The translations under genes were made by a program, and so were the position numbers. The notes below the pieces were generated by a model. The model was not told where the DNA came from. It saw nothing but the letters and a program-made list of their open reading frames with translations, and ran no database searches. 59,253 bases of DNA, taken from IMG/VR virus record IMGVR_UViG_3300025889_000131, positions 1-59,253 of that record, one strand, 5' to 3'. The DNA comes from a virus. The stretch's first letter is position 1. Every line of letters begins with the position of its first letter. Shown here piece by piece: positions 37,247 through 59,193 of this stretch.

Positions 37247-37467
37247 TAGTTAGTTCCTATATTTGCGATATGCTCAAGAATTTTCTCTGTTCTTTCAAGC
37301 GTTCTTTCAAGTCTTTCCATTCGTTCATGAAGATCATCAATTTTTTCAGACTGTTTACGTCGAGCTCTATAGGCTCTAAGACCATCGCTGTCTACATTTA
37401 ATAGAGCACCCGTTGTTTTATCTTTAACGAGATCTTCTCTTCCAACAATTTTCTCTTTGTTTTCCAT
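37246..37467 (-). CDS. Small coiled-coil protein between baseplate and fibre genes
   Basis: A 73-residue protein. The C-terminal half (KIDDLHERMERLERTLERTEKIL) has regular hydrophobic heptads and should form a coiled coil; the N-terminal half is charged and ends with a basic RARRK patch. It overlaps single bases with both the giant baseplate protein gene and the first fibre gene, so it is tightly coupled. A role as a trimerisation or linking factor for fibres is an inference from its position and coiled coil. Confidence 0.65.
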   Translation of the reverse strand: MENKEKIVGREDLVKDKTTGALLNVDSDGLRAYRARRKQSEKIDDLHERMERLERTLERTEKILEHIANIGTN

Positions 37468-40400
37468 TATTTCTGCAGTGCAATTGCTCTAAAGTTACGA
37501 ACTCTTGGCGGATTAACTGTCGTTGATGACAGAAGAACAAGCTTAACTTTCAGATATTTATATCTCGAGAAAGCAACTCTTGAATTATTAGTATACTGAA
37601 TAATTCCGGTCGTTGTATTTGCTCCAGATTTATATGTGTCTGACCAATTAGGAACCGTATACTTTCTTTCTGTAAAGTCATTACGGTTTTCCGTAGACGA
37701 AACAACCAGATTAGAAGTTGCATCCGTCATTGGTACCCAACCGCGATCTTCAAGAGCATCATCATCTTCACGATTGAGAATCTTATAGTATGCTTTAATC
37801 TGTGAATCGTTTGGAGTATAACCGTCAAGATAGATAAGTAAATCTTCAGCATCCTGTCCATCTTCAAGTACAACTGTTTTTGTGATATATCTTGATTTTG
37901 CATTACCACCAGTTGTGTTTGCAGCTGGACCATTGACCCATTCACTGTCTTCATTTGAAGAGTCAGCGTTAATCATGTTCTCGATATTTACGAGATAGGT
38001 ACGATCAATATCGATAGCAGGAGATACTCTATCATTACGTGAGAACATATTGATGATTGCTTCTCCTGTCGGCGGCAACGACTGATCTCTTTCTGATGAT
38101 TTAGAGAGAATAAATCTGCGTGACTGATTTACTGTTGTTTCACCAACAGTAAAGTCAGTACTATCTACTTCAAACGCATTTGTTGCAGATGCAAACTTAC
38201 TTGATGACAGAATACGTGTGTCATTAAGATCAAGATAATCAGACCATAACATGAATGAATCTTGATTTAGTACATCACGACTTACAACATTTGCTGTATA
38301 TCCATTAACTCTTGATGTAAGTGTTGTATTTGCAACGAACTGAGCAGATGCGTTGGTAGTGACTCCACTTGGTGTTTCATATACTCCAGTTGTGTTTGAT
38401 ACGTAGAGGTATGAGTTTGAGTAGTTGGTACTATCATAGTAGTACAGTTTACCAGTTGCATAGTTTTTAGCATGAATAACCGCTGTTTGCCCGGTAGCAA
38501 CACTCGTATCAGAGAACTTGAACGTAAGCGTTTCACCAATTTGGAAATCAGTTCCTGTAGTGATTTTTGTGACCACAATGTCATTGGCTGACGCGTTGAT
38601 TCCAGTGTTGGAGTCCGGGCCAATTCTCGAAACCGTACCGATTGCTCCAGACGTTCCTCCAACAACAAATTCTTGGCCTGCTCCATTTGCGATCGGAGGT
38701 GTGCCAGAGACTGATGTAGTAAGTGTAATTCGCTGTGGTCCATGTATCACCTCTCCAAATTTTGTAAAGTAATCCTGTGAAGTAGAACTTGGTACTCCGT
38801 TAGAAACATTGTCGACCGTAAAGAAGTCAACATTTGCTTTCTTGAGTACTGCAGTTCCTGTAGCATTTGTAGTAAACTTAGCCAAGTAAACAGTAAACTT
38901 CAGATCTTCTTCCTGAATTGCGGTATACTGACGATCATTAGAAGATGCATGAAGCATTCCAATTGCAGGCTGTTTACTTACACGATTTCCTGTAACCGTA
39001 TCTACTTCACCAAGCCTTGAGCACCAGATATTATAGTTCGGATTGTTTGCAGCAGGACGAACAACGAGTGCATATTCTCTTGATCCAACTAAGTAAATTG
39101 GAGTAGAGAATGTAAACGGTGTTGGTTTGCTTCCATCGTCACTTAGGTTGACATCTGCGCTGTTGACAGTAACTTGGCTGAATGGAACAATCTTACTTGT
39201 AATTGCGTTGCTTGTTTTATCAACTTCTCTAATTTCAACAGATACTGGATAGTTAGCATCTTTTGACTGGAAGTACAGATCAATCTTAGTTAAGAAAGCA
39301 CCGGATGATGACGCACCGCTAAGACCAACATCTGCAAGAGTAAATGTTTGTGCTAACGGATCTTCTGCGCAGGCTCCACCTGATACAGATAGAGATGCAC
39401 TGTAAGCATTTAGTGCAGCCTGTGTATCAAACAGACCAGTTGGATTGATGACTCCGGTAAATTGACCGTTCCAGAGAAGTCCACTTTCTCCAAGTTCTGG
39501 TGCATCTACGGAATACTGAATTGGAACGGGTGCATTTGGATTTGTAGTAATCGGAGGCTGTGCACTACCAGAACCAACAGCTGCTGTATTTGCTGTACCA
39601 GGCTGTGGTGATGCTTCGTATGCTTCTCCACCAGGAAGTACGTTAACAACATCATGTCTATCCTGTTTCCATCCACTGTATTCTGAAACGGCTTCATTGC
39701 GAATTTCAGGAATACGCGTAGTAACGATCGTATCTTGTACAGACTTAGTTGTCCCAGATGAAGTAAAGAATGCATCAGCTGAAGTAGTTGTTTCGTTAAG
39801 TCTCGGAATATTTTTCGGACTGTCTGTAATACGGAATACTTTAGTACCAGTTGTGAACTTCAAGCTTGCATCGTTTGGAATACGGAAGAGACCATATACA
39901 TTTCCATTAGCATCTGATGTCAGCGATCCACCTTCATTAGCCGTATTTGCATAGCTGCTGTTTGTTGGTGTGACATAAGAACTGACATAACGATTATCAA
40001 AGTAAGCATAAAGCTTAGTATTAGGTTTCATTCCAATTGCATTGAATTTAACAATACGCGAACGCATGTATTTCGAAACACTAACGCCAACAACGTTTGT
40101 ATTGCGTGTCGTCTTGATTGTATCTGGAAGACGTTTGATCTGAACACCAGATCTTTGGAAACGATAATCCGTTACAGCAATACTACGCTCAACATCATGT
40201 AAGAATTCTCTACCAGCTCCATTGATAACAACCTCTTTTGAAACGGTTGGATCTGTGTAGTATTCATTTCTTGATGAATCATCTACTTCCCAATCGCCCC
40301 ATTCTGTTGTGATAACTTTTTCTTCAAAGTAGTTGTCATTGTTATTATCAAAGTTCTGATTGACATCTGGAAGCTGAATAACACTTTCCCACGTATCATT

Positions 40401-43400
40401 GTCTGGGTCAAGAGTCATTGTTCCGCGGAAGTTATAAAACAATCCAGCAAGATTACGAGTATGTGTAGAATACGGATTCTTGAATGTTTGATCGTGTTCA
40501 TACTTAAGTGTAACCAATTTTCCAACAGGAGGATTTGCAACAGTTTGAATTTTAGAGATACTCCCTGAGGTACCTCCAGTTACTGTTTCTCCTGCAGTAA
40601 ATGATCCAGAAGTAATAGTTTCAATATAGAGCTTATTGTCTACTTGATAAACAAGTGTTCCTGTGGCTCCGCCAGCGCCAGTAATTGTTTCACCTGCAGT
40701 GAATGTATTACCTGTAAGATTAGTATTACTCAGTGTTGAATTGATATAAAGTGTTAGCTTAGAATCGCGTGGCTTATTGAGAACATTAGTGCTATTCGCA
40801 GAATGATAGTTCATTTCTACATGGTCAACCTTAACTGGTGGACGCATTTCATTCTTTGTTCTATCAATTGAGATAGAATAATCATCATCGGCTGGATCAC
40901 CAACTCCATGACCGGTAAATCCATCTACAATAATTCCGTTCTTGAAACGATCAATACCAGAAGAGTCTGCAATAAATCGACCAGCAGTTTCTCTTTCAAG
41001 CTGATTTAGAGCAACATAGTATTCAAGGCGACTGATACGTTCATCAAGAGCACCAATGTCTTTCATTTTATATCCGCGTTGTGATGTAGGAGTCATCTTG
41101 ACAGCAAGATCACGACGCTTGTTTGGAGTCAGTTTGTTTGCTTCACTTAGAGGAATTGAAGGATACGGAGGAATATGCAGAGTTGCCAAAATCATAGCAT
41201 CTGCTGGACTACGAGGAGGCTGAGGAGCCTCAGAAGGAACACCGCGAACCGTACGGAATGATCCCTTTGAGTCGATCACAAGAAGATCTATACGACCAAG
41301 ATAATTCTGGTAATCAAACAAGAAATTAGCATTCGGAGGTGAATAGTGCAATCCGCTTGCAATAGTCGAAATTGTAGTATTTGTCGGAGGATTGGTTGTG
41401 ATATTTGTCAGTGATGTAACATTATTTGCTGTATCACTAATACGTGGACGAATGTCAATACAATCTCTCAGATCAAGTACTTTACCGTCTGTTGGAGAAA
41501 TAAACAGAGGAATTTCTTCTGTTTTGATTGAAGTATTACTTGGATTGCTATCATTGATAGGATAACTGTCAACACTGAAGTAACCAATACCAGATGATGT
41601 ATCATGTTCGAAGAAATCATACTTAACAAGCAGATAATCTGATGTTGTCAGAGTCAATGGCTTGAAAGGATTGCGCTTAAGTTTACCATGATTGTAAAGA
41701 TTGTCTCTTTGTCCGTTATCAAGAACAAAGTTTTCTGTCACATCTACTCCATCCGTAAGAGCAGAGAATGCAGATCCTTTACGACGAACCTGTGTAATCT
41801 TATGAATGTCGGATACACCGAGATTCCATGGACCAAGAATTCCTCCATTAGCAGAGGAAAGATTCAGTTGTACGTAACGATTCTTTCGAATTGTTTTGTC
41901 AATCTGTGCTCCGTCAACTCTTTTCTGCTTAGAAATTACAGTTGCCGAAACAGATCCAGTTGTGTTGAAACCTTCTTTGAGATCAAAACGAACAGACGTT
42001 GATGATGATGAACCTACAAGACGACCAGTAGCTGTGTTAGATCCAGCAGCACCAGTACCAGTCAGATCAACAGCCTGCCCGGCGAAGATAACTTTGTGAT
42101 GATTTTGTGATCCACCGGTTGACCAGTTCTTCGTATTAGAAATGATTAGATTTGTGTCATTCTGAATGGTAAGAATGCGTTCACCTTGAGTTCCATTACC
42201 AAAATGAATGTATTCACCGACATTATATTCTGATGCAAAGTCAGTTCCTGAACCAGCTACGTTTGCACCTGTTACAGTTACTGTTCCTGTGTGATGTGCC
42301 GTAGAAGTATTTGCTGTGGTATTAAAGAATAAATGATAATTATCACGAATTTGAGAAGCTGTAAGTGTCCCGGTTCCGTGATTGATCTGTCCTGTTCCAG
42401 ATGCAGCAGAAGTAGTAATAGTAAAGACACCAGTATTCGAAATGTTTACTGACTCTCTCTTCAAGTAACGATGATCAAGATCAAGTGTTCCGCTTGCGTC
42501 TGTAAGTTGTTTGACACCCCTTGATCCAATTGGATACACACCTCTAACAAACCCAGGCTCCTGAATTGAGGCTACTCCGTTAGAGAGAACCACATCAGCA
42601 ATTGAGTTAGCAGCTGAACCTGACGTCCAGTTATCCAAGAAGACACTGCGTACATTAGCAAAATTAGCTGATGACATCTGAATATCATAGAGATATAGAT
42701 TATATAGTGCGTTGTTACTTCCAGGTGTTCCTGATACATACTCGAGAGCACGGGCACGCGCAGTACCAATCTCTGAACCAACCGCAACACCCGTCTTATT
42801 ATTTCCACCAATACCACCTGTATGTACATAAGTATTGGCAGCACTGTTTCTGAGACTGATTACACTGTGCTTATTAAAGTCCCATGAGCCAGCAACACCA
42901 TAAACCTGTACATAATTTCCGTAATTGGTAGAAACTGTTGCATCATTATATGTCTTTGTGTCAATTCCTTTCGGTGTTTCTACGTATGTAGTTCCAGATG
43001 TTTTATGATCGTATCCGCGAACATAAGCTTTACCACTTTCAACACCAAGCATGAGAAGGTTGTTATTCCCGCGAGATGATGATGAAAGAATACCATTGTT
43101 ATTACCGGTCTTTAGATGTTCATGAACTCTAACACCCATACCTTCTGTTACGTAATCACCTTCATTATCGAAGGCTCTGCGTGCTACATAGTCACGAAGT
43201 TTGTTATACGTAGATGCATCACGCTTAAGCTCCATAGCTCCATTTTTGATTTGGAGAAGTTCTACAAAGTTACTGTTTGCTCCAAATGAAGATGTCGTTG
43301 ATCTCGTTGTAAGAATCGGATCAAGTTTAAGTCTATCTGCCCCAACAGCACTGTAATTCTTAGCTCCACTTGCAGGATCAAGTAATGATAAATCCTGTGA

Positions 43401-44093
43401 AGAAGTGACAACATTCTCCGCAATATCAAATCCTACGCGAACTGTTGGGAATCGTGAACGTTTACCGACAATAACGCTCTGCTCAGGAACTCTAATAAAG
43501 TGATCCTTCGCAAAAATAATACCTTCACGAACTGTCATGCGCGCTGAATAACCAGTAGCATTAGCCTGAGAAACAACATTTGCAGAAAGTCCGCTGTTAG
43601 CTACTAGCTGTTCTCCTGCAGACGATGCATCTCCAACAAAGATCTTCTGAATATTGTTTGAACTTGAGCTCGTGTATTTAACGAACAGTGTTTTAGTATC
43701 CAAACCGTCTGCTTCTGACCCGTCTTCAGATCCAACAACATATGCTGTAATTCCAGATGTCTGTCCTGTAATTGATGTTCCCACAAGAGCAGCTGCATTT
43801 ACAGTCGATCCAGTATTAGCACTATCGCGAATACGAACAAAACCAACCTGCTGATCATAAAGAATTTCACAGCCTTTAACAACCGCTCCTTCTTTAAGAA
43901 TATGCTCTCCAAATCGATCAATTTGATTTTGAAGAAGTGTTTGAAGCTGAGTTAATTCTCTGCCTTGAACAGCACGTCCTGGACGAAACAGAAATCTATG
44001 AAAATTCTTTGTTTCATCAAAGTCATCATAATAAGGATCAACATTGAAATCTGTTGATAGTGTGTTTGTATTAGATACTGAAACGTCTGCCAT
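37467..44093 (-). CDS. Giant 2208-residue baseplate/fibre-base structural protein (DUF4815-type N terminus)
   Basis: The largest gene in the window. Its N terminus (NVDPYYDDFDETKNFHRFLF, then RPGRAVQGRELTQLQTLLQNQIDRFGEHI) matches the DUF4815 domain typical of large baseplate-associated proteins in marine T4-like phages. The body is beta-rich with many N, T and S residues and several small modules of the type FTAGETITGAGGATG and FTAGETVTGGTSG. A C-terminal region (WNGQFTGVINPTGLFDTQ, then ACAEDPLAQTFTLAD) resembles phage baseplate sugar/fibre-binding segments. It lies between gp8 and the fibre genes, so it probably links wedges to the fibres, the place occupied by gp9-gp12 in T4. Confidence 0.85.
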   Translation of the reverse strand: MADVSVSNTNTLSTDFNVDPYYDDFDETKNFHRFLFRPGRAVQGRELTQLQTLLQNQIDRFGEHILKEGAVVKGCEILYDQQVGFVRIRDSANTGSTVNAAALVGTSITGQTSGITAYVVGSEDGSEADGLDTKTLFVKYTSSSSNNIQKIFVGDASSAGEQLVANSGLSANVVSQANATGYSARMTVREGIIFAKDHFIRVPEQSVIVGKRSRFPTVRVGFDIAENVVTSSQDLSLLDPASGAKNYSAVGADRLKLDPILTTRSTTSSFGANSNFVELLQIKNGAMELKRDASTYNKLRDYVARRAFDNEGDYVTEGMGVRVHEHLKTGNNNGILSSSSRGNNNLLMLGVESGKAYVRGYDHKTSGTTYVETPKGIDTKTYNDATVSTNYGNYVQVYGVAGSWDFNKHSVISLRNSAANTYVHTGGIGGNNKTGVAVGSEIGTARARALEYVSGTPGSNNALYNLYLYDIQMSSANFANVRSVFLDNWTSGSAANSIADVVLSNGVASIQEPGFVRGVYPIGSRGVKQLTDASGTLDLDHRYLKRESVNISNTGVFTITTSAASGTGQINHGTGTLTASQIRDNYHLFFNTTANTSTAHHTGTVTVTGANVAGSGTDFASEYNVGEYIHFGNGTQGERILTIQNDTNLIISNTKNWSTGGSQNHHKVIFAGQAVDLTGTGAAGSNTATGRLVGSSSSTSVRFDLKEGFNTTGSVSATVISKQKRVDGAQIDKTIRKNRYVQLNLSSANGGILGPWNLGVSDIHKITQVRRKGSAFSALTDGVDVTENFVLDNGQRDNLYNHGKLKRNPFKPLTLTTSDYLLVKYDFFEHDTSSGIGYFSVDSYPINDSNPSNTSIKTEEIPLFISPTDGKVLDLRDCIDIRPRISDTANNVTSLTNITTNPPTNTTISTIASGLHYSPPNANFLFDYQNYLGRIDLLVIDSKGSFRTVRGVPSEAPQPPRSPADAMILATLHIPPYPSIPLSEANKLTPNKRRDLAVKMTPTSQRGYKMKDIGALDERISRLEYYVALNQLERETAGRFIADSSGIDRFKNGIIVDGFTGHGVGDPADDDYSISIDRTKNEMRPPVKVDHVEMNYHSANSTNVLNKPRDSKLTLYINSTLSNTNLTGNTFTAGETITGAGGATGTLVYQVDNKLYIETITSGSFTAGETVTGGTSGSISKIQTVANPPVGKLVTLKYEHDQTFKNPYSTHTRNLAGLFYNFRGTMTLDPDNDTWESVIQLPDVNQNFDNNNDNYFEEKVITTEWGDWEVDDSSRNEYYTDPTVSKEVVINGAGREFLHDVERSIAVTDYRFQRSGVQIKRLPDTIKTTRNTNVVGVSVSKYMRSRIVKFNAIGMKPNTKLYAYFDNRYVSSYVTPTNSSYANTANEGGSLTSDANGNVYGLFRIPNDASLKFTTGTKVFRITDSPKNIPRLNETTTSADAFFTSSGTTKSVQDTIVTTRIPEIRNEAVSEYSGWKQDRHDVVNVLPGGEAYEASPQPGTANTAAVGSGSAQPPITTNPNAPVPIQYSVDAPELGESGLLWNGQFTGVINPTGLFDTQAALNAYSASLSVSGGACAEDPLAQTFTLADVGLSGASSSGAFLTKIDLYFQSKDANYPVSVEIREVDKTSNAITSKIVPFSQVTVNSADVNLSDDGSKPTPFTFSTPIYLVGSREYALVVRPAANNPNYNIWCSRLGEVDTVTGNRVSKQPAIGMLHASSNDRQYTAIQEEDLKFTVYLAKFTTNATGTAVLKKANVDFFTVDNVSNGVPSSTSQDYFTKFGEVIHGPQRITLTTSVSGTPPIANGAGQEFVVGGTSGAIGTVSRIGPDSNTGINASANDIVVTKITTGTDFQIGETLTFKFSDTSVATGQTAVIHAKNYATGKLYYYDSTNYSNSYLYVSNTTGVYETPSGVTTNASAQFVANTTLTSRVNGYTANVVSRDVLNQDSFMLWSDYLDLNDTRILSSSKFASATNAFEVDSTDFTVGETTVNQSRRFILSKSSERDQSLPPTGEAIINMFSRNDRVSPAIDIDRTYLVNIENMINADSSNEDSEWVNGPAANTTGGNAKSRYITKTVVLEDGQDAEDLLIYLDGYTPNDSQIKAYYKILNREDDDALEDRGWVPMTDATSNLVVSSTENRNDFTERKYTVPNWSDTYKSGANTTTGIIQYTNNSRVAFSRYKYLKVKLVLLSSTTVNPPRVRNFRAIALQK

Positions 44094-53923: not shown

Positions 53924-54837
53924 TATGCTCCATCCTTATCGATTTCTTTCTTGGTAACAATACGAGTTTCCGTAAAGCTCATATCGATAGTGACACTCAC
54001 AGGTGCTTCTTCATCTCCAACGGTATGATAAAATGGTCCACCTTCTCCATGGTAATTGACACTGAAAGATGTAAGAACACTCTGGTTTAACTTGAATAGA
54101 TACTTGTCTTTATTGAATCCAATATGAAACTGATTCGGATAAGCAAAAATGTGATTCTCTGCTCTGTATTCTGGTGCCTGTGCTCTCTTGAAAAGATAAA
54201 TGATATTTCTAATAGTGTCTGATTCTTTTTGATTATTGGCGATCAGTTTGTAATTGAAAGAGTGTGTTCTAAATCCAATACCTTTAAACAAAACAGCCAT
54301 ATGAGGGTTACGCGTAATTCCCTTTCCAGCAAGTGCTCCTGTTGCAACCTGTTGCGCACCGGCAGATATACCTGCGAGAGCACCTGCGGCGGCAGTTCCT
54401 CCAAGAGCATTACCAAGAAGAGCGGATACGAGAGGAGCCGCCTGTGTTTCAGCAGCTTGCAAGCCAAGGCCTTTAAGTGCATCTTGATTGACTACTTTCT
54501 CTCTTGTTCCCGCGAGAAAGTCTGATACACTTTGAACGGAAAAATCAAGATCTCCAGCAGATTGAGCAGCAGCCTGTCCTAAAATTCCCATTTCTTCTTG
54601 TGCATAATCTACATTATATCCTGTCTGTAAATTTCCTGGAAGAGGCAGAATGATACGCTGAGAGATCTTCTGTTTTTCGTTAAGGTCTCTCTGATACTGA
54701 TAGTCTTCAAAGATACTGAACACAACAAACTGACCCATCTGTTCCATCTCGTTTGGAAAGACAAGTGTTCCACTTCTATTTCTATCTACAAGTTCTTTAA
54801 GTTGTGATCGTGTTTCTTTTAGATCTAAAGAGGCCAT
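53923..54837 (-). CDS. 48: Baseplate tail-tube cap protein gp48
   Basis: A 304-residue member of the gp48/gp54 tube-initiator family. It has RIILPLPGNLQTGYNVDYAQ, an Ala/Gly-rich middle (about residues 125-170: GGTAAAGALAGISAGAQQ) and the conserved C terminus NPHMAVLFKGIGFRTHSFNY, FAYPNQFHIGFNKDKYLFKL, with AEGGPFYHTVGDE-like motif (GEGGPFYHTVGDEEAPVSVT). gp48 sits on the hub and starts the tail tube; gp54 lies on the opposite strand nearby. Its ATG is overlapped by the opposing late box for gp4. Confidence 0.85.
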   Translation of the reverse strand: MASLDLKETRSQLKELVDRNRSGTLVFPNEMEQMGQFVVFSIFEDYQYQRDLNEKQKISQRIILPLPGNLQTGYNVDYAQEEMGILGQAAAQSAGDLDFSVQSVSDFLAGTREKVVNQDALKGLGLQAAETQAAPLVSALLGNALGGTAAAGALAGISAGAQQVATGALAGKGITRNPHMAVLFKGIGFRTHSFNYKLIANNQKESDTIRNIIYLFKRAQAPEYRAENHIFAYPNQFHIGFNKDKYLFKLNQSVLTSFSVNYHGEGGPFYHTVGDEEAPVSVTIDMSFTETRIVTKKEIDKDGA

Positions 54838-54844
54838 ATAAATA
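54837..54844 (+). promoter_or_regulatory. Plus-strand late promoter box for gp4 and the hub operon
   Basis: Exact TATAAATA on the plus strand, overlapping the gp48 start codon by one base; 28 bases before the gp4 ATG at 54873. Confidence 0.75.
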
Positions 54845-54861
54845 TCCTTGGATTTACCAAC

Positions 54862-54869
54862 TATTTATA
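54862..54869 (-). promoter_or_regulatory. Minus-strand late promoter box for gp48 and the baseplate operon
   Basis: Exact TATAAATA on the minus strand, 24 bases before the gp48 ATG, facing the plus-strand box at 54837-54844. Confidence 0.78.
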
Positions 54870-54872
54870 ACT

Positions 54873-55331
54873 ATGCCAGAATACTACCAAGGAAAATATA
54901 GACCAAAAAACCCTCATAAGTACAAAGGAAACCCAAACGAAATCTACTTTCGTAGTTCTTGGGAAGCTAAAGCTATGATGTACTTTGACTTAAGAGAAGA
55001 AGTCATACAGTGGTCCAGCGAAGAAATTATTGTTCCATATAGATCTAAACTTGACGGTAAAAAGCATCGTTACTTTCCAGACTTTGTTATTACGGTAATT
55101 GACAAGAATGGAAAGAAAAAAACATATATGGTTGAAGTAAAACCGTATAAGCAGACAATAGAACCAAAACCACAAAAGAGAATGACAAAAAAGTACTTAA
55201 GAGAAGTCCAAACCTACGTTATAAATAAATCAAAATGGGAATATGCAGAAGAATTCTGTAAAGACCGCGGTTGGGAATTTACTACAATCACAGAGAAAGA
55301 TTTATTCGGAAGTGCCGGCATCAACCTTTGA
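54873..55331 (+). CDS. 4: Head completion protein gp4 (gp50)
   Basis: A 152-residue protein (T4: 150). The start PEYYQGKYRPKNPHKYKGNP and the nuclease-like core IYFRSSWEAKAMMYFDLREE, then EIIVPYRSKLDGKKHRYFPD, then TYMVEVKPYKQT agree with gp4, a head completion protein with an endonuclease-like fold required before tail joining. The open frame extends upstream, but the ATG at 54873 matches the family start and follows the plus-strand late box. It is the first gene of the rightward late operon. Confidence 0.93.
   Translation: MPEYYQGKYRPKNPHKYKGNPNEIYFRSSWEAKAMMYFDLREEVIQWSSEEIIVPYRSKLDGKKHRYFPDFVITVIDKNGKKKTYMVEVKPYKQTIEPKPQKRMTKKYLREVQTYVINKSKWEYAEEFCKDRGWEFTTITEKDLFGSAGINL
55220..55227 (+). 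promoter_or_regulatory. Internal plus-strand TATAAATA inside gp4
   Basis: Exact TATAAATA on the plus strand within the gp4 coding region, 85 bases before the GTG of the next gene. It could be an internal late promoter or a chance match in AT-rich DNA. Confidence 0.35.
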
Positions 55332-55899
55332 CCAAATATTAGCTAAAGGAGCTCGACAGGGTATTCTTCCTGCACGCACAGCAGACGCGCGTCGTTGGTT
55401 TAGAGATCAAGCAAAGAGATCCAATGTTACAGCCGAAAAGCTTCATGCTGAATCTAAAGCTGCGTTCACAAAATCTGTTTCTGTTGGGCGAATGTATATG
55501 TTTTTCTATGATCCGAAACATAAAAAGACACTTCCATATTATGACAGATTTCCGCTGATATTTCCTTTCAAAGGAGAATCAGATGGATTCTATGGAATCA
55601 ATCTTCATTACCTTCCACCAAAACTAAGAGCTATGCTGATGGATGGTTTGTATGATCTGCTTTCTAATAAGAAATATGACGAAACAACAAAGCTTCGTTT
55701 GAGCTATAATGTTCTTAATGGTGCTTCTAAATATAAATGGTTTAAACCTTGTGTTAAGAGATATCTATCACGGCATGTAAGATCTCGATTTATTGAAGTG
55801 AATGTGAATGAATGGGACATGGCACTCATGCTTCCAACACAGAAATTCCAAGGAGCTTCAACAGCAAAAGTCTGGAGAGATAGCAGAAATGCCGTTTAA
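55312..55899 (+). CDS. Candidate gp2-like DNA end protector / conserved virion protein
   Basis: A 195-residue protein from the GTG at 55312 (an ATG at 55243 would add 23 residues but overlap gp4 by 89 bases). The conserved-looking core is FDQILAKGARQGILPARTAD, then GRMYMFFYDPKHKKTLPYYD, FPLIFPFKGESDGFYGINLH and YLPPKLRAMLMDGLYDLL. I associate this core with marine T4-like proteins annotated as DNA end protector (gp2), and gp2 next to gp4 is the T4 order (2, 4, 53). Function rests on that association. gp2 binds DNA ends in the head and shields them from RecBCD. Confidence 0.5.
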   Translation: MPASTFDQILAKGARQGILPARTADARRWFRDQAKRSNVTAEKLHAESKAAFTKSVSVGRMYMFFYDPKHKKTLPYYDRFPLIFPFKGESDGFYGINLHYLPPKLRAMLMDGLYDLLSNKKYDETTKLRLSYNVLNGASKYKWFKPCVKRYLSRHVRSRFIEVNVNEWDMALMLPTQKFQGASTAKVWRDSRNAV

Positions 55900-56662
55900 A
55901 ATTAACGAGTTTACAAGTTCTATCAGCGCAACTGGTGTTTCTAAACAGGATCGGTTTGAGGTTCGTATTACACCTCCTTCACCCGGTGGTTCTGGAGAGT
56001 CAGCATTGAGTCGTCTTATCTCTGCATTATCCAGCGTGGGTGGTACCGTAGGACAGATTGCTGGTATTATTGACGGATTTGGAGGAGTCGACTCACAACA
56101 CTTAGCTCTTCGTGCATCTGAAGCTGAACTTCCAGGACGTTCAACACAGACAATAGAAAACAGATACTATGGCCCAGTTCAGAAAACTGGATATCAGGGA
56201 AATTACGTAGATACGCAGATTACGTTTATCTGTAGTGAAGATCTTCGTGAAAAGTTATTCTTCGAGAAATGGCAAGATCTTATCTTTGGAGATCATCGTA
56301 CAGGACCGAACAATCTCACTATGAAGAACTACAATGCTGGATACTATGATGACTATATCTCTACAATCGAGATTTTTCAGTATAATGAGAACAACGATAA
56401 AACGTATCAAATCAAACTACTTGAAGCCTTTCCTATTAATGTCAATCCATTGTCACTTTCCTGGGGAGCAGACGACATTCACAAATTGCAAGTTAGCTTC
56501 GCATTTAGATCATTTGAAGATAAATCTAACGGATTGTCTAAATTTGCTGCCGGTGCTTTCAATCTTAACAATGCACTTGGTGGAGGAAGCGGGAGAGAAG
56601 TTGGTGGAATTAATACATCGAACGTGCGACGTGGAATTCGTTTCTTAAATAGAATTTTTTAA
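55889..56662 (+). CDS. 54: Baseplate tail-tube initiator gp54-like
   Basis: A 257-residue protein of the gp19/gp54 tube family. The ATG at 55889 was chosen because PFKINEFTSSISATGVSKQD is the family start; the longer open frame is an out-of-frame overlap with the previous gene. Family motifs: RASEAELPGRSTQTIENRYY, GPVQKTGYQGNYVDTQITFI, the EDLREKLFFEKWQDLIFG block and INVNPLSLSWGADDIHKLQV. gp54 starts tube polymerisation on gp48. The gene overlaps the previous one by 11 bases. Confidence 0.85.
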   Translation: MPFKINEFTSSISATGVSKQDRFEVRITPPSPGGSGESALSRLISALSSVGGTVGQIAGIIDGFGGVDSQHLALRASEAELPGRSTQTIENRYYGPVQKTGYQGNYVDTQITFICSEDLREKLFFEKWQDLIFGDHRTGPNNLTMKNYNAGYYDDYISTIEIFQYNENNDKTYQIKLLEAFPINVNPLSLSWGADDIHKLQVSFAFRSFEDKSNGLSKFAAGAFNLNNALGGGSGREVGGINTSNVRRGIRFLNRIF

Positions 56663-56678
56663 CTGAATTGGAGTAACT

Positions 56679-57392
56679 ATGCCTTTACCATCATTAGCAA
56701 CACCTGAGTTTTTTACCAAGATTCCTTCAACACAGAAAGAAATCAAATTCCGTCCTTTTCTTGTTAAGGAAGAGAAGCTTCTCTATATAGCATTAGAAAG
56801 CAAAAACAATAAAGATATCGTCAATGCAGTTAAGCAGATTTTGCATAATTGTATTCTTGATGATATCGACATTGACGAACTGACATCATTCGATTTTGAA
56901 TATCTGTTTCTGCAGCTACGTGGAAAGTCAGTCGGTGAAGTTATCGAATTGATTGTTTCTCATGATCCAGAAAAGAACGACTGTAAACACAAAACACCAG
57001 TTGCCGTTAATATTGAAGACATTAAAGTTAATGTTCCAGAAAAGAATACTAAAACGGTGGAGCTAACATCAGATATTGGTATAGAACTACACTATCCAAA
57101 TATCGAAAAGCTTTCGAATGTGACAAACATTAAGACAGACGAATTCGATGCTCTTATTGATGTTATGGCATCATGCATTAAAAAGGTGTATCAGGGAGAT
57201 GAAGTTATTACAGATTTCAGCCATAAAGAAATGAAGGACTGGATTCTAACAATGAATAAAACACAGCGTGAAAGCATTTATGATTTCATTAAAGATATGC
57301 CGACTATTACACATAAAATTGAATGGACATGCCCGGCCTGTGGAAAGGATGATTTTGTAGAAGTACGAGGGCTTCAAGGTTTTTTTACCTAA
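56679..57392 (+). CDS. 26: Baseplate hub protein gp26 (0-frame product)
   Basis: A 237-residue hub protein (T4 gp26: 208). Conserved segments are KIPSTQKEIKFRPFLVKEEK, LLYIALESKNNKDIVNAVKQ, FDFEYLFLQLRGKSVGEVIE and EMKDWILTMNKTQRESIYDF; a zinc-ribbon-like CPACGKDD pair lies near the C terminus. The last codons before the stop are GGT TTT TTT ACC, which form the slippery sequence at 57380-57386. The ribosome binding site is GGAG. By T4 order it is a hub factor; its relation to frameshifting tail chaperones is discussed in the findings. Confidence 0.88.
   Translation: MPLPSLATPEFFTKIPSTQKEIKFRPFLVKEEKLLYIALESKNNKDIVNAVKQILHNCILDDIDIDELTSFDFEYLFLQLRGKSVGEVIELIVSHDPEKNDCKHKTPVAVNIEDIKVNVPEKNTKTVELTSDIGIELHYPNIEKLSNVTNIKTDEFDALIDVMASCIKKVYQGDEVITDFSHKEMKDWILTMNKTQRESIYDFIKDMPTITHKIEWTCPACGKDDFVEVRGLQGFFT
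57380..57386 (+). promoter_or_regulatory. Slippery heptamer U_UUU_UUU at the gp26 stop (candidate -1 frameshift site)
   Basis: Seven T residues in the correct phase (GGT TTT TTT ACC TAA) just before the gp26 stop. A one-base backward slip continues into an open frame that runs to 57565. Confidence 0.65.
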
Positions 57393-57565
57393 GTCTTTCT
57401 CATAATACACTACAGAACTATTATCGAAGCACTTTCGCAATGATGCAACATCATAAATATAGTTTGACAGAACTAGAAAATATGATTCCTTGGGAAAGAC
57501 AGATATATCAGACTATGCTTATTCAATATATTGAAGAAGAAAACGAAAGGCGCAATAAAAAGTAA
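57386..57565 (+). CDS. 51: gp51-like hub assembly segment, probably made as a gp26 -1 frameshift extension
   Basis: In the -1 frame relative to gp26, 59 codons follow the slippery site: YLSLSHNTLQNYYRSTF, then AMMQHHKYSLTELENMIPWE, RQIYQTMLIQYIEEENE. I associate this sequence with the gp51 (hub assembly catalyst) of marine T4-like phages. No ATG, GTG or TTG precedes the conserved start in that frame; the first ATG (57440) has no ribosome binding site and would lose a third of it. The fusion would be 295 residues. Its stop codon overlaps the next ATG (TAATG). Free translation from 57440 remains the alternative. Confidence 0.65.
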   Translation, partial: YLSLSHNTLQNYYRSTFAMMQHHKYSLTELENMIPWERQIYQTMLIQYIEEENERRNKK

Positions 57566-59193
57566 TGGCACTTCCTGCACTCAATAATGATGAATCAGAA
57601 ACACTCATCATAGAAGGATCGATGATGATCGACGATAGTATTCAGGCTGTCGGAGACAAAATCGTGAATGTACTAAAGGCTATTGAATATACTATGTCTA
57701 TGACTATGATAAATGTTATGCAGGAAATGATTGATCAGAATACACAGATTATAGGTCTTCTTAAGAAAGAATACAATGCTGATGAAGCTGAACGAGACAG
57801 AGTCGAATCAGAAAAAGACACGTCTGCATTTGCTGCTGATGAGGCAGAAGCGGAGGCTGCAAGATCTCAGCCAACAGAAAAACTTATCAATACAGATAAA
57901 CTTAAAGCTTTTGGATCTAAATTAACAAACAGTCTTTTTAGTATACTCGGCGGTGCCGCCGCCCTTGGATTTCTGTATTTCCTTCCTGAAATTCTAGACA
58001 GTAAGTTTTTTAAAGAAGGCCTAAAGTTCATGAAAGAAACTTTGTGGCCTGCACTTGTTTCTCTTTGGGATGACTATTTGCTTCCAATTGTTCAATGGCT
58101 TGGTAATAGTCTTGGTGATCTCTTTGAGGACTTCAATGATCCAAATAAAACCGGTCTTGATATTCTTAAAGAGAACTTTGGTATTATTGCGCTAGTCATT
58201 GGTGGTATTGCCGCAAAGATTATTGGTTTATCAACTATTTTGAGTGGTGTTGGCCCAGCATTGGCTTCTGCTGGTGCATTGATATCTGCTCCAGTTGCTT
58301 TGTTTGCTGCAGGTGCAGCTGCTTTTGTGACTGGGATGATTGGTGCAACAGAAGCTCTTGAAAATGGCAAAGAAATACTCGATAAAGAAAAACTATCACT
58401 AACTGATAAGATCTCTCTTGCAATTGGAGGGTTTATTGGTGGTGTTCTTGGAATCTTTGATTGGATAGCCGGTCTTTTTGGAATAGAAACAAACTTCAAA
58501 GAAACAGCAACGAAAGGAATTTCTAACTTCATTGCAGATCTATTTGACAGTCTTAAAATTCTCATTGTTGATGCTTTACCTGCAGTCTTTCAAGATAAAG
58601 CAGCAGAAATGCTAGGTGTTGATACAGATTTGAGAGAAAGACAAAGAGATAGACAGATCACTGACAATGAAAATAAACTTCAGGAACTCGAAAAAGCAAA
58701 AACACGTATAGAAGAAAGTAACATTGGTGAGACAACCAAACAAATCAAACTGTCACAAATTGAAAAACAGATTGAAGAAATTACAGAACAGAACAAAATA
58801 AACAAACTGCAGAAACAGATTGGCACAATCGACGTTACAACATCACAAAGAACAGAAGAAATTCCTGGTGTGTTGGATAAAATTTTTGGTAAATCTGGAG
58901 AAGATGCTTATAGATCTGCTATAGGAGAAGATACAGAAGAAATTCCTGGTGTGTCGGATAGATTTTTTGGTAAATCTGGAGGAGATGTTTATAGCTCTGC
59001 TTCTAATATCGGAGAAGATATTGATATGAAATCAAGAGAAATTGACAGAGCTGGTACAAACGTAGTAACCATCGTTGATAATTCTACTAAGAATCAGAGC
59101 AGCATGCAAAACAACATCACAAATAGAAATGGAGGGTCAGCTGTTAGACCGAAGTCTGAAGAGCCGACCCTCAGTGCCATGGCTGGTTTGTAA
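57565..59193 (+). CDS. 29: Tail hub / tape-measure candidate (gp29-like)
   Basis: A 542-residue protein (T4 gp29: 590). It has a helical, charged N terminus, an acidic linker (about 75-105), several hydrophobic stretches (SILGGAAALGFLYFLPEIL near 125-143, then FGIIALVIGGIAAKIIG, ISAPVALFAAGAAAFVTGMI, IGGFIGGVLGIFDWIAGLFG), a coiled coil (about 365-425) and a 27-residue tandem repeat starting TEEIPGV. Membrane-like segments plus coiled coil are typical of tape-measure proteins, which fix tail length and help DNA entry. The place after gp26/gp51 is also right. Direct similarity to T4 gp29 is not obvious to me. Confidence 0.55.
   Translation: MALPALNNDESETLIIEGSMMIDDSIQAVGDKIVNVLKAIEYTMSMTMINVMQEMIDQNTQIIGLLKKEYNADEAERDRVESEKDTSAFAADEAEAEAARSQPTEKLINTDKLKAFGSKLTNSLFSILGGAAALGFLYFLPEILDSKFFKEGLKFMKETLWPALVSLWDDYLLPIVQWLGNSLGDLFEDFNDPNKTGLDILKENFGIIALVIGGIAAKIIGLSTILSGVGPALASAGALISAPVALFAAGAAAFVTGMIGATEALENGKEILDKEKLSLTDKISLAIGGFIGGVLGIFDWIAGLFGIETNFKETATKGISNFIADLFDSLKILIVDALPAVFQDKAAEMLGVDTDLRERQRDRQITDNENKLQELEKAKTRIEESNIGETTKQIKLSQIEKQIEEITEQNKINKLQKQIGTIDVTTSQRTEEIPGVLDKIFGKSGEDAYRSAIGEDTEEIPGVSDRFFGKSGGDVYSSASNIGEDIDMKSREIDRAGTNVVTIVDNSTKNQSSMQNNITNRNGGSAVRPKSEEPTLSAMAGL
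58852..59001. repeat. Imperfect 81-bp tandem duplication in the tape-measure candidate
   Basis: Unit 1 (58852-58932) and unit 2 (58933 to about 59001) encode TEEIPGVLDKIFGKSGEDAY and TEEIPGVSDRFFGKSGGDVY. The units are in frame and 27 codons apart. Confidence 0.85.

Follow-up and report, generated by a model that had tools for sequence, protein, structure and literature searches.

Comparative sequence analysis of a T4-like phage genome, represented here by a 59,253-nucleotide stretch of DNA (the window), indicated that a -1 programmed frameshift near the 3' end of the gp26-like gene very probably yields two tail assembly chaperones, a short form (gp26) and a long form (gp26-gp51). Positions of the features involved are given in Table 1.

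Table 1. Features of the putative frameshift locus in the window.
Feature	Position	Strand	Description
gp26-like ORF	56679..57392	+	237 aa; short form (TAC-N), putative tail assembly chaperone
Shine-Dalgarno-like GAGGG	57367..57371	+	8 nt upstream of heptamer; 9 nt in most relatives
Slippery heptamer T_TTT_TTT	57380..57386	+	T_TTT_TTN in 91/93 loci
-1 frame extension	57386..57565	+	59 codons + TAA; gp51-like C-terminal part (TAC-C) of predicted 295-aa long form
Next gene, tape-measure-like	57565..59193	+	542 aa; start overlaps extension stop (TAATG)

Organization of the gp26-like locus

The window carries a T4-like gene set that includes major head protein, portal, sheath, terminase, baseplate wedge and gp5-like genes, and its capsid protein was closest to that of Methylophilales phage Melnitz (63.5%). 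One product of the baseplate region (37467-44093) is a 2208-aa member of phrog_358, a family of unknown function. Ahead of the gp26-like gene, ORFs for a gp4-like head closure protein, a gp2-like DNA end protector and a tail-tube-like protein (54804-55331, 55243-55899 and 55808-56662, respectively) show long listed overlaps, and their true starts probably lie internally.

The gp26-like ORF matched the profiles PF12322 (T4_baseplate, E 9e-59) and phrog_150 (baseplate hub, E 4.5e-63), the former being the family that marks the TAC-N protein of the T4-like pair. Its 3' end reads CGA GGG CTT CAA GGT TTT TTT ACC TAA, with the last five codons at 57378-57392 and U_UUU_UUU in phase, two codons ahead of the stop. 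From the heptamer onward the -1 frame is open and encodes YLSLSHNTLQNYYRSTFAMMQHHKYSLTELENMIPWERQIYQTMLIQYIEEENERRNKK, after which it ends in a TAA (57563-57565), whose last A is the first base of the ATG of the next ORF. A fusion of the two reading frames would comprise 236 + 59 = 295 residues. The phase of the slippery site, the open -1 frame, the TAATG overlap and the length of the fusion had been noted in an earlier, sequence-only reading of the window and were confirmed. So was its observation that start codons are absent ahead of the conserved part of the extension: there is no ATG, GTG or TTG there, and the -1 frame has no ATG before position 57440, which lies within a conserved NFALMQHH-type motif. 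The extension matched positions 58-114 of phrog_634 (baseplate hub assembly catalyst) with an E of 1.5e-25. Homology to the C-terminus of T4 gp51, the feature that identifies TAC-C, was likewise found, residues 147-246 of T4 gp51 corresponding to phrog_634 positions 2-103.

A scan of both strands of the window for in-phase T_TTT_TTN sequences, limited to ORFs with at least 100 aa, detected eight. The gp26 site alone was located within the last few codons of its ORF, and no other had a long -1 extension behind it (59 codons at gp26, vs 0-15 elsewhere). The gene that follows matched phrog_305 (tail length tape measure) with an E of 6e-7, a weak assignment, and gave no match in tblastn of the phage collection. 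The protein that it encodes contains an imperfect internal repeat (EEIPGVLDKIFGKSGEDAYRSA / EEIPGVSDRFFGKSGGDVYSSA; window 58850-59015).

Under the proposed mechanism, the majority of ribosomes would terminate at 57392 and release the 237-residue short form. A minority, paused by pairing of GAGGG with 16S rRNA and with two tRNA-Phe on TTT TTT, would slip one base back and continue in the -1 frame, which would give a 295-residue form with the junction GLQGFFYLSLSH and a gp51-like C-terminal segment. Slip efficiency would then fix the ratio of short to long form, and the two would constitute a TAC-N and TAC-NC pair.

Conservation of the heptamer and reading frame

By tblastn of phage records, gp26 was found in 1201 and the extension in 586. 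A single-protein search of IMG/VR gave no match and an alignment-based search was used instead; the 80 IMG/VR loci were retrieved with internal gp26 motifs, far from the gp26 3' end. Together with the window and 12 phage records, these made up a set of 93 loci, which are related by descent, so that the counts below are not independent. An in-phase NNT_TTT_TTN ended gp26 in 91 of the 93, the exceptions being Vibrio K413 and Kuja. The extension was in the -1 frame in all of the 91 heptamer loci but S-SCSM1, and in the 84 loci where it was readable, a P[WF]ER-type motif followed the slip at a distance of 33-36 residues, nearly always 34.

Clustering of the 91 heptamer loci at 80% nucleotide identity left 76 representatives, with TTTTTTC in 51, TTTTTTT in 23, and TTTTTTA and TTTTTTG in one each. 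The residue preceding the slip codons varied (S, D, N, G, A), and the third base of its codon was T in 76/76. From codon usage, this invariance has a log10 probability of -30, a value that treats the clusters as independent though they are kin and is a guide only. When 230 gp26 columns were ranked by synonymous constraint, the first slip codon came first and the codon preceding the slip came third; other FF pairs within gp26 were canonical in 5 of 75 cases. Selection thus acts on the slippery nucleotides themselves. Alignment of the gp26-gp51 junctions, which the sequence-only reading had suggested as a check, showed conservation of heptamer, frame, synonymous codons and spacing, and a conserved in-phase -1 slippery sequence near the TAC-N 3' end is a mark of the TAC-N/TAC-NC pair in T4-like phages.

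Transcriptional slippage along the T's, or a sequencing or assembly error, could also give rise to a change of frame, and the window does have a run of seven T's. However, most relatives have six T's followed by C, which is too short for typical polymerase slippage, and both the preceding third base and the run's phase have been kept in the way that the logic of tRNA re-pairing predicts, TTTTTTA included. Nor can an assembly error repeat across 91 loci drawn from isolates and metagenomes. In view of the predominance of T6C and this recurrence both explanations were rejected, and we regard either as extremely improbable.

Canonical sites were present in Kyanoviridae, KVP40, Aeromonas Ah1, Delftia PhiW-14, Stenotrophomonas Mendera, Pelagibacter Mosig and Rhizobium phages (TTTTTTG in the last). 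Non-canonical sites occurred in Ackermannviridae (Kuttervirus, Limestonevirus, Taipeivirus, VAP7, Kuja and phiA8-29). In these, and in Vibrio VPALA and Vibrio K413, the extension was still in the -1 frame and the T-rich stretch was ATTTTC, CTTTTC, GTTTTTC or similar, at which one Phe tRNA only is able to re-pair. In S-SCSM1 (locus L008, 3700-3760), heptamer and GAGGG were intact and an indel past the gp26 stop had moved the extension out of the -1 frame; an ATG lies close upstream of it, in the other frame. The indel reflects either a mistake in sequencing or a genuine change of the extension into a gene of its own. An extension in another frame, the pattern that had been named as speaking against the frameshift, was accordingly absent in all but one of the 91 heptamer loci and present once.

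Candidate start codons of the extension

In many records the extension is annotated as gp51, a small gene apart from gp26, and such a gene, with its own start and translationally coupled to gp26, would be an alternative to the frameshift. P-SSM2, KVP40, RL38J1 and many cyanophages do have an ATG a few codons from the gp26 stop, and S-SCSM1 apparently requires an ATG start of its own. Against this explanation, 16 of 84 loci, the window among them, had no ATG, GTG or TTG able to start the conserved extension, and 29 of the 76 representatives had no ATG in the -1 frame within 10 codons past the slip. Where candidate ATGs were found, their mean anti-SD energy was -1.57, vs -4.00 at gp26 starts. 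Heptamer and GAGGG were kept with or without an ATG; GAGGG itself lies some 25 nt away from the ATG that is the usual candidate, too distant for initiation, and homology reaches the slip site, 5' of any ATG. An independent gp51 start was rejected on account of missing start codons and weak ribosome binding, and a separate coupled gene is very unlikely. A start of its own with a good ribosome binding site, the other pattern that had been held to argue against frameshifting, was not seen at candidate ATGs, which were weak or missing; the gp51 of S-SCSM1 is ATG-started.

Signals flanking the heptamer

The GAGGG element upstream of the heptamer is likely to act as a stimulator of -1 slippage, judging from codon choice and predicted pairing. 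Glu codons at the GAGGG site were GAG in 51 of 63 cases, vs 30% across gp26 and 13 of 49 cases where E-G occurs elsewhere; a conserved E/R-G motif dictates part of GAGGG, and the codon choice exceeds what the motif requires. For the 76 representatives, the anti-SD duplex had a mean energy of -7.49 kcal/mol, vs -5.41 (sd 0.19) under synonymous recoding, and the window duplex was at -6.4. In Escherichia coli dnaX, an SD-like element lies about 10 nt upstream of the slippery heptamer. An SD-like element about 10 nt upstream that is selected beyond the protein code, as at dnaX-type sites, was thus present in the phage family as well.

Downstream RNA was more stable at TTTTTTC sites (mean z -2.28) than at TTTTTTT sites (-0.64; approximate values, from single-base shuffles). 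In one cyanophage group an 11-bp stem begins 5 nt past the heptamer. Changes on both sides of the stem were seen in 5 pairs (9 cells), vs 0-3 pairs and 0-6 cells in slid controls, a covariation signal that is bounded by the overlapping codons. In the window, a downstream hairpin of the dnaX type was absent (z 0.15), and no Rfam element was found downstream of the heptamer. The arrangement resembles dnaX in its upstream SD-like element and, in some T4-like relatives, in a downstream hairpin. It differs in that dnaX uses A AAA AAG and has a shifted product that is shorter, whereas the predicted shifted product of the window is longer and has no hairpin associated with it. A second cyanophage group (loci such as L039, L042, L052, L058, L073 and L094) carries short palindromes, for example GGTCCATATGGACC / GATCCATATGGATC, about 10 nt past the heptamer, possibly an alternative stimulator.

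Tentatively, and with slightly more doubt than confidence, we propose that T4-like phages may tune the chaperone ratio by a signal of three parts, which combines a codon-selected SD-like element 8-9 nt upstream with T_TTT_TTY and a choice made by lineage: either the slipperier TTTTTTT and no hairpin, the state of the window, or TTTTTTC together with a covarying hairpin, the state of some cyanophages. T4 would have swapped the signal for two paralogous genes. The SD-like and hairpin stimulators may not have been described previously.

Relation to known tail assembly chaperones

The abstract of a 2022 paper by Vladimirov, Gautam and Davidson reportedly names genes 26 and 51 and describes frameshifting as retained in several T4-like groups. 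Poly-T -1 signals in T4-like TAC-N genes are attributed to that paper (Virology 566:9-15) in a passage of PMC12846349, and the PRFect article (PMC10885494) contains a passage crediting Vladimirov 2022 with the finding that some T4-like phages have, in place of the frameshift, one short gene and a second, long gene that is already fused. As far as these passages go, the core idea of a T4-like TAC frameshift is already published and the window phage is a further member. It shares with the TAC-N/TAC-NC pairs outlined there the gp26 family, a gp51-like extension and a poly-T -1 site near the TAC-N end; our description of the likely SD-like stimulator and of the cyanophage hairpin is drawn from sequence, and this analysis may add to the published finding.

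In its predicted short and long products the locus also resembles gpG/gpGT of lambda and E/E' of P2. There, -1 slippage close to the 3' end of a single gene, which precedes the tape measure gene, gives the two products. Lambda gpG is about 140 aa long and lambda slips on G GGA AAG, whereas gp26 of the window has 237 aa and carries a C-terminal zinc-ribbon-like CPxCG segment. In lambda, the part common to gpG and gpGT attaches to the tape measure, and tail tube subunits are brought in by the extension (PMC5009743). By analogy with gpG/gpGT, the part shared by both forms would coat the tape measure protein of the adjoining gene, and the extension would recruit tail tube subunits.

The AlphaFold model of gp26 was of high confidence (pLDDT 90.6). 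A PDB fold search with gp26 gave no significant match; chains A and B of the HK97 chaperone 2OB9 appeared at ranks 4 and 11, with E of 1.6 and 3.3 and probabilities of 0.20 and 0.33, which is not significant and a hint only. When gp26 and the extension were compared by sequence with solved structures, nothing significant was returned, and NCBIfam gave no match above cut-off. A BFVD search retrieved gp26-family proteins from many large myoviruses.

Following the classical reading of T4 gp26 and gp51, the frameshift could be real and its product a baseplate hub assembly factor without a role in relation to the tape measure. T4 gp26 and gp51 have been placed among the hub proteins or the chaperones of hub assembly (PMC3004832), in Ackermannviridae and some other phages the next annotated gene is of hub/lysozyme type with no obvious tape measure, and the lack of a significant match between gp26 and known chaperone folds would fit as well. 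We nevertheless consider this unlikely: a short and long pair made by a -1 shift ahead of a tape-measure-like gene is a hallmark of tail chaperones, T4 gp51 is needed for assembly and missing from the final particle (PMC3004832), and independent authors, in the passages referred to above, call these genes TACs. Hub and chaperone roles may moreover be one, since the T4 tape measure gp29 is a hub component. Of the points in the sequence-only reading, the frameshift is strongly supported by conservation, and the suggestion that gp26 and gp51 form a chaperone pair agrees with published T4-like work and with the adjoining tape-measure-like gene; as an idea it was not new.

Genes 26 and 51 in T4 and annotation of gp51

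In T4, PF12322 was matched end to end by both gp26 (residues 1-206) and gp51 (residues 1-201), and gp51 additionally matched phrog_634. In a two-sequence BLAST search the two proteins showed weak similarity (E about 4e-6). These profile matches imply that T4 encodes its two forms as separate genes, the short one as gp26 and the long one, extension included, as gp51. T4 differs from the window in that genes 26 and 51 are separate, divergently oriented and without a slippery site. Its gp26 ends in GAG TTC TTT GAG TTA CTA TAA, and in T4, T6 and Aeromonas PS49 neither the slip site nor an extension past gp26 was found. By homology, gp51 stands as a gene in its own right in T4 and the phages nearest to it, where it joins a gp26 paralogue to the extension.

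To call separate gp26 and gp51 genes a misreading is consequently correct for cyanophages, for KVP40-like phages and for others of this sort. T4, T6 and the phages closest to them, with their genuine paralogous gp51 gene, are exceptions. There is strong comparative evidence that abundant marine T4-like phages produce gp26 and 'gp51' as a single frameshifted chaperone pair, and if so, many annotations of a 'baseplate hub assembly catalyst' as a separate gene, or its omission, are wrong in product. An older review had set T4 apart ('except T4'; PMC5009743); this gap would now be closed, as Vladimirov et al. had argued according to the passages that cite them.

Cyanophage gp51 has been described as lacking the first ~200 residues and as ~20% of T4 gp51, and gp51 was thought to be missing in Aeromonas phage Aeh1 (PMC3037559). 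The cyanophage protein is short by comparison because T4 gp51 is the long form, gp26-like part included. In the related Aeromonas phage Ah1 (locus L013, 3678-3887), an unannotated -1 extension follows GAT TTT TTC GAC TGA, which may account for the reported lack of gp51 in Aeh1.
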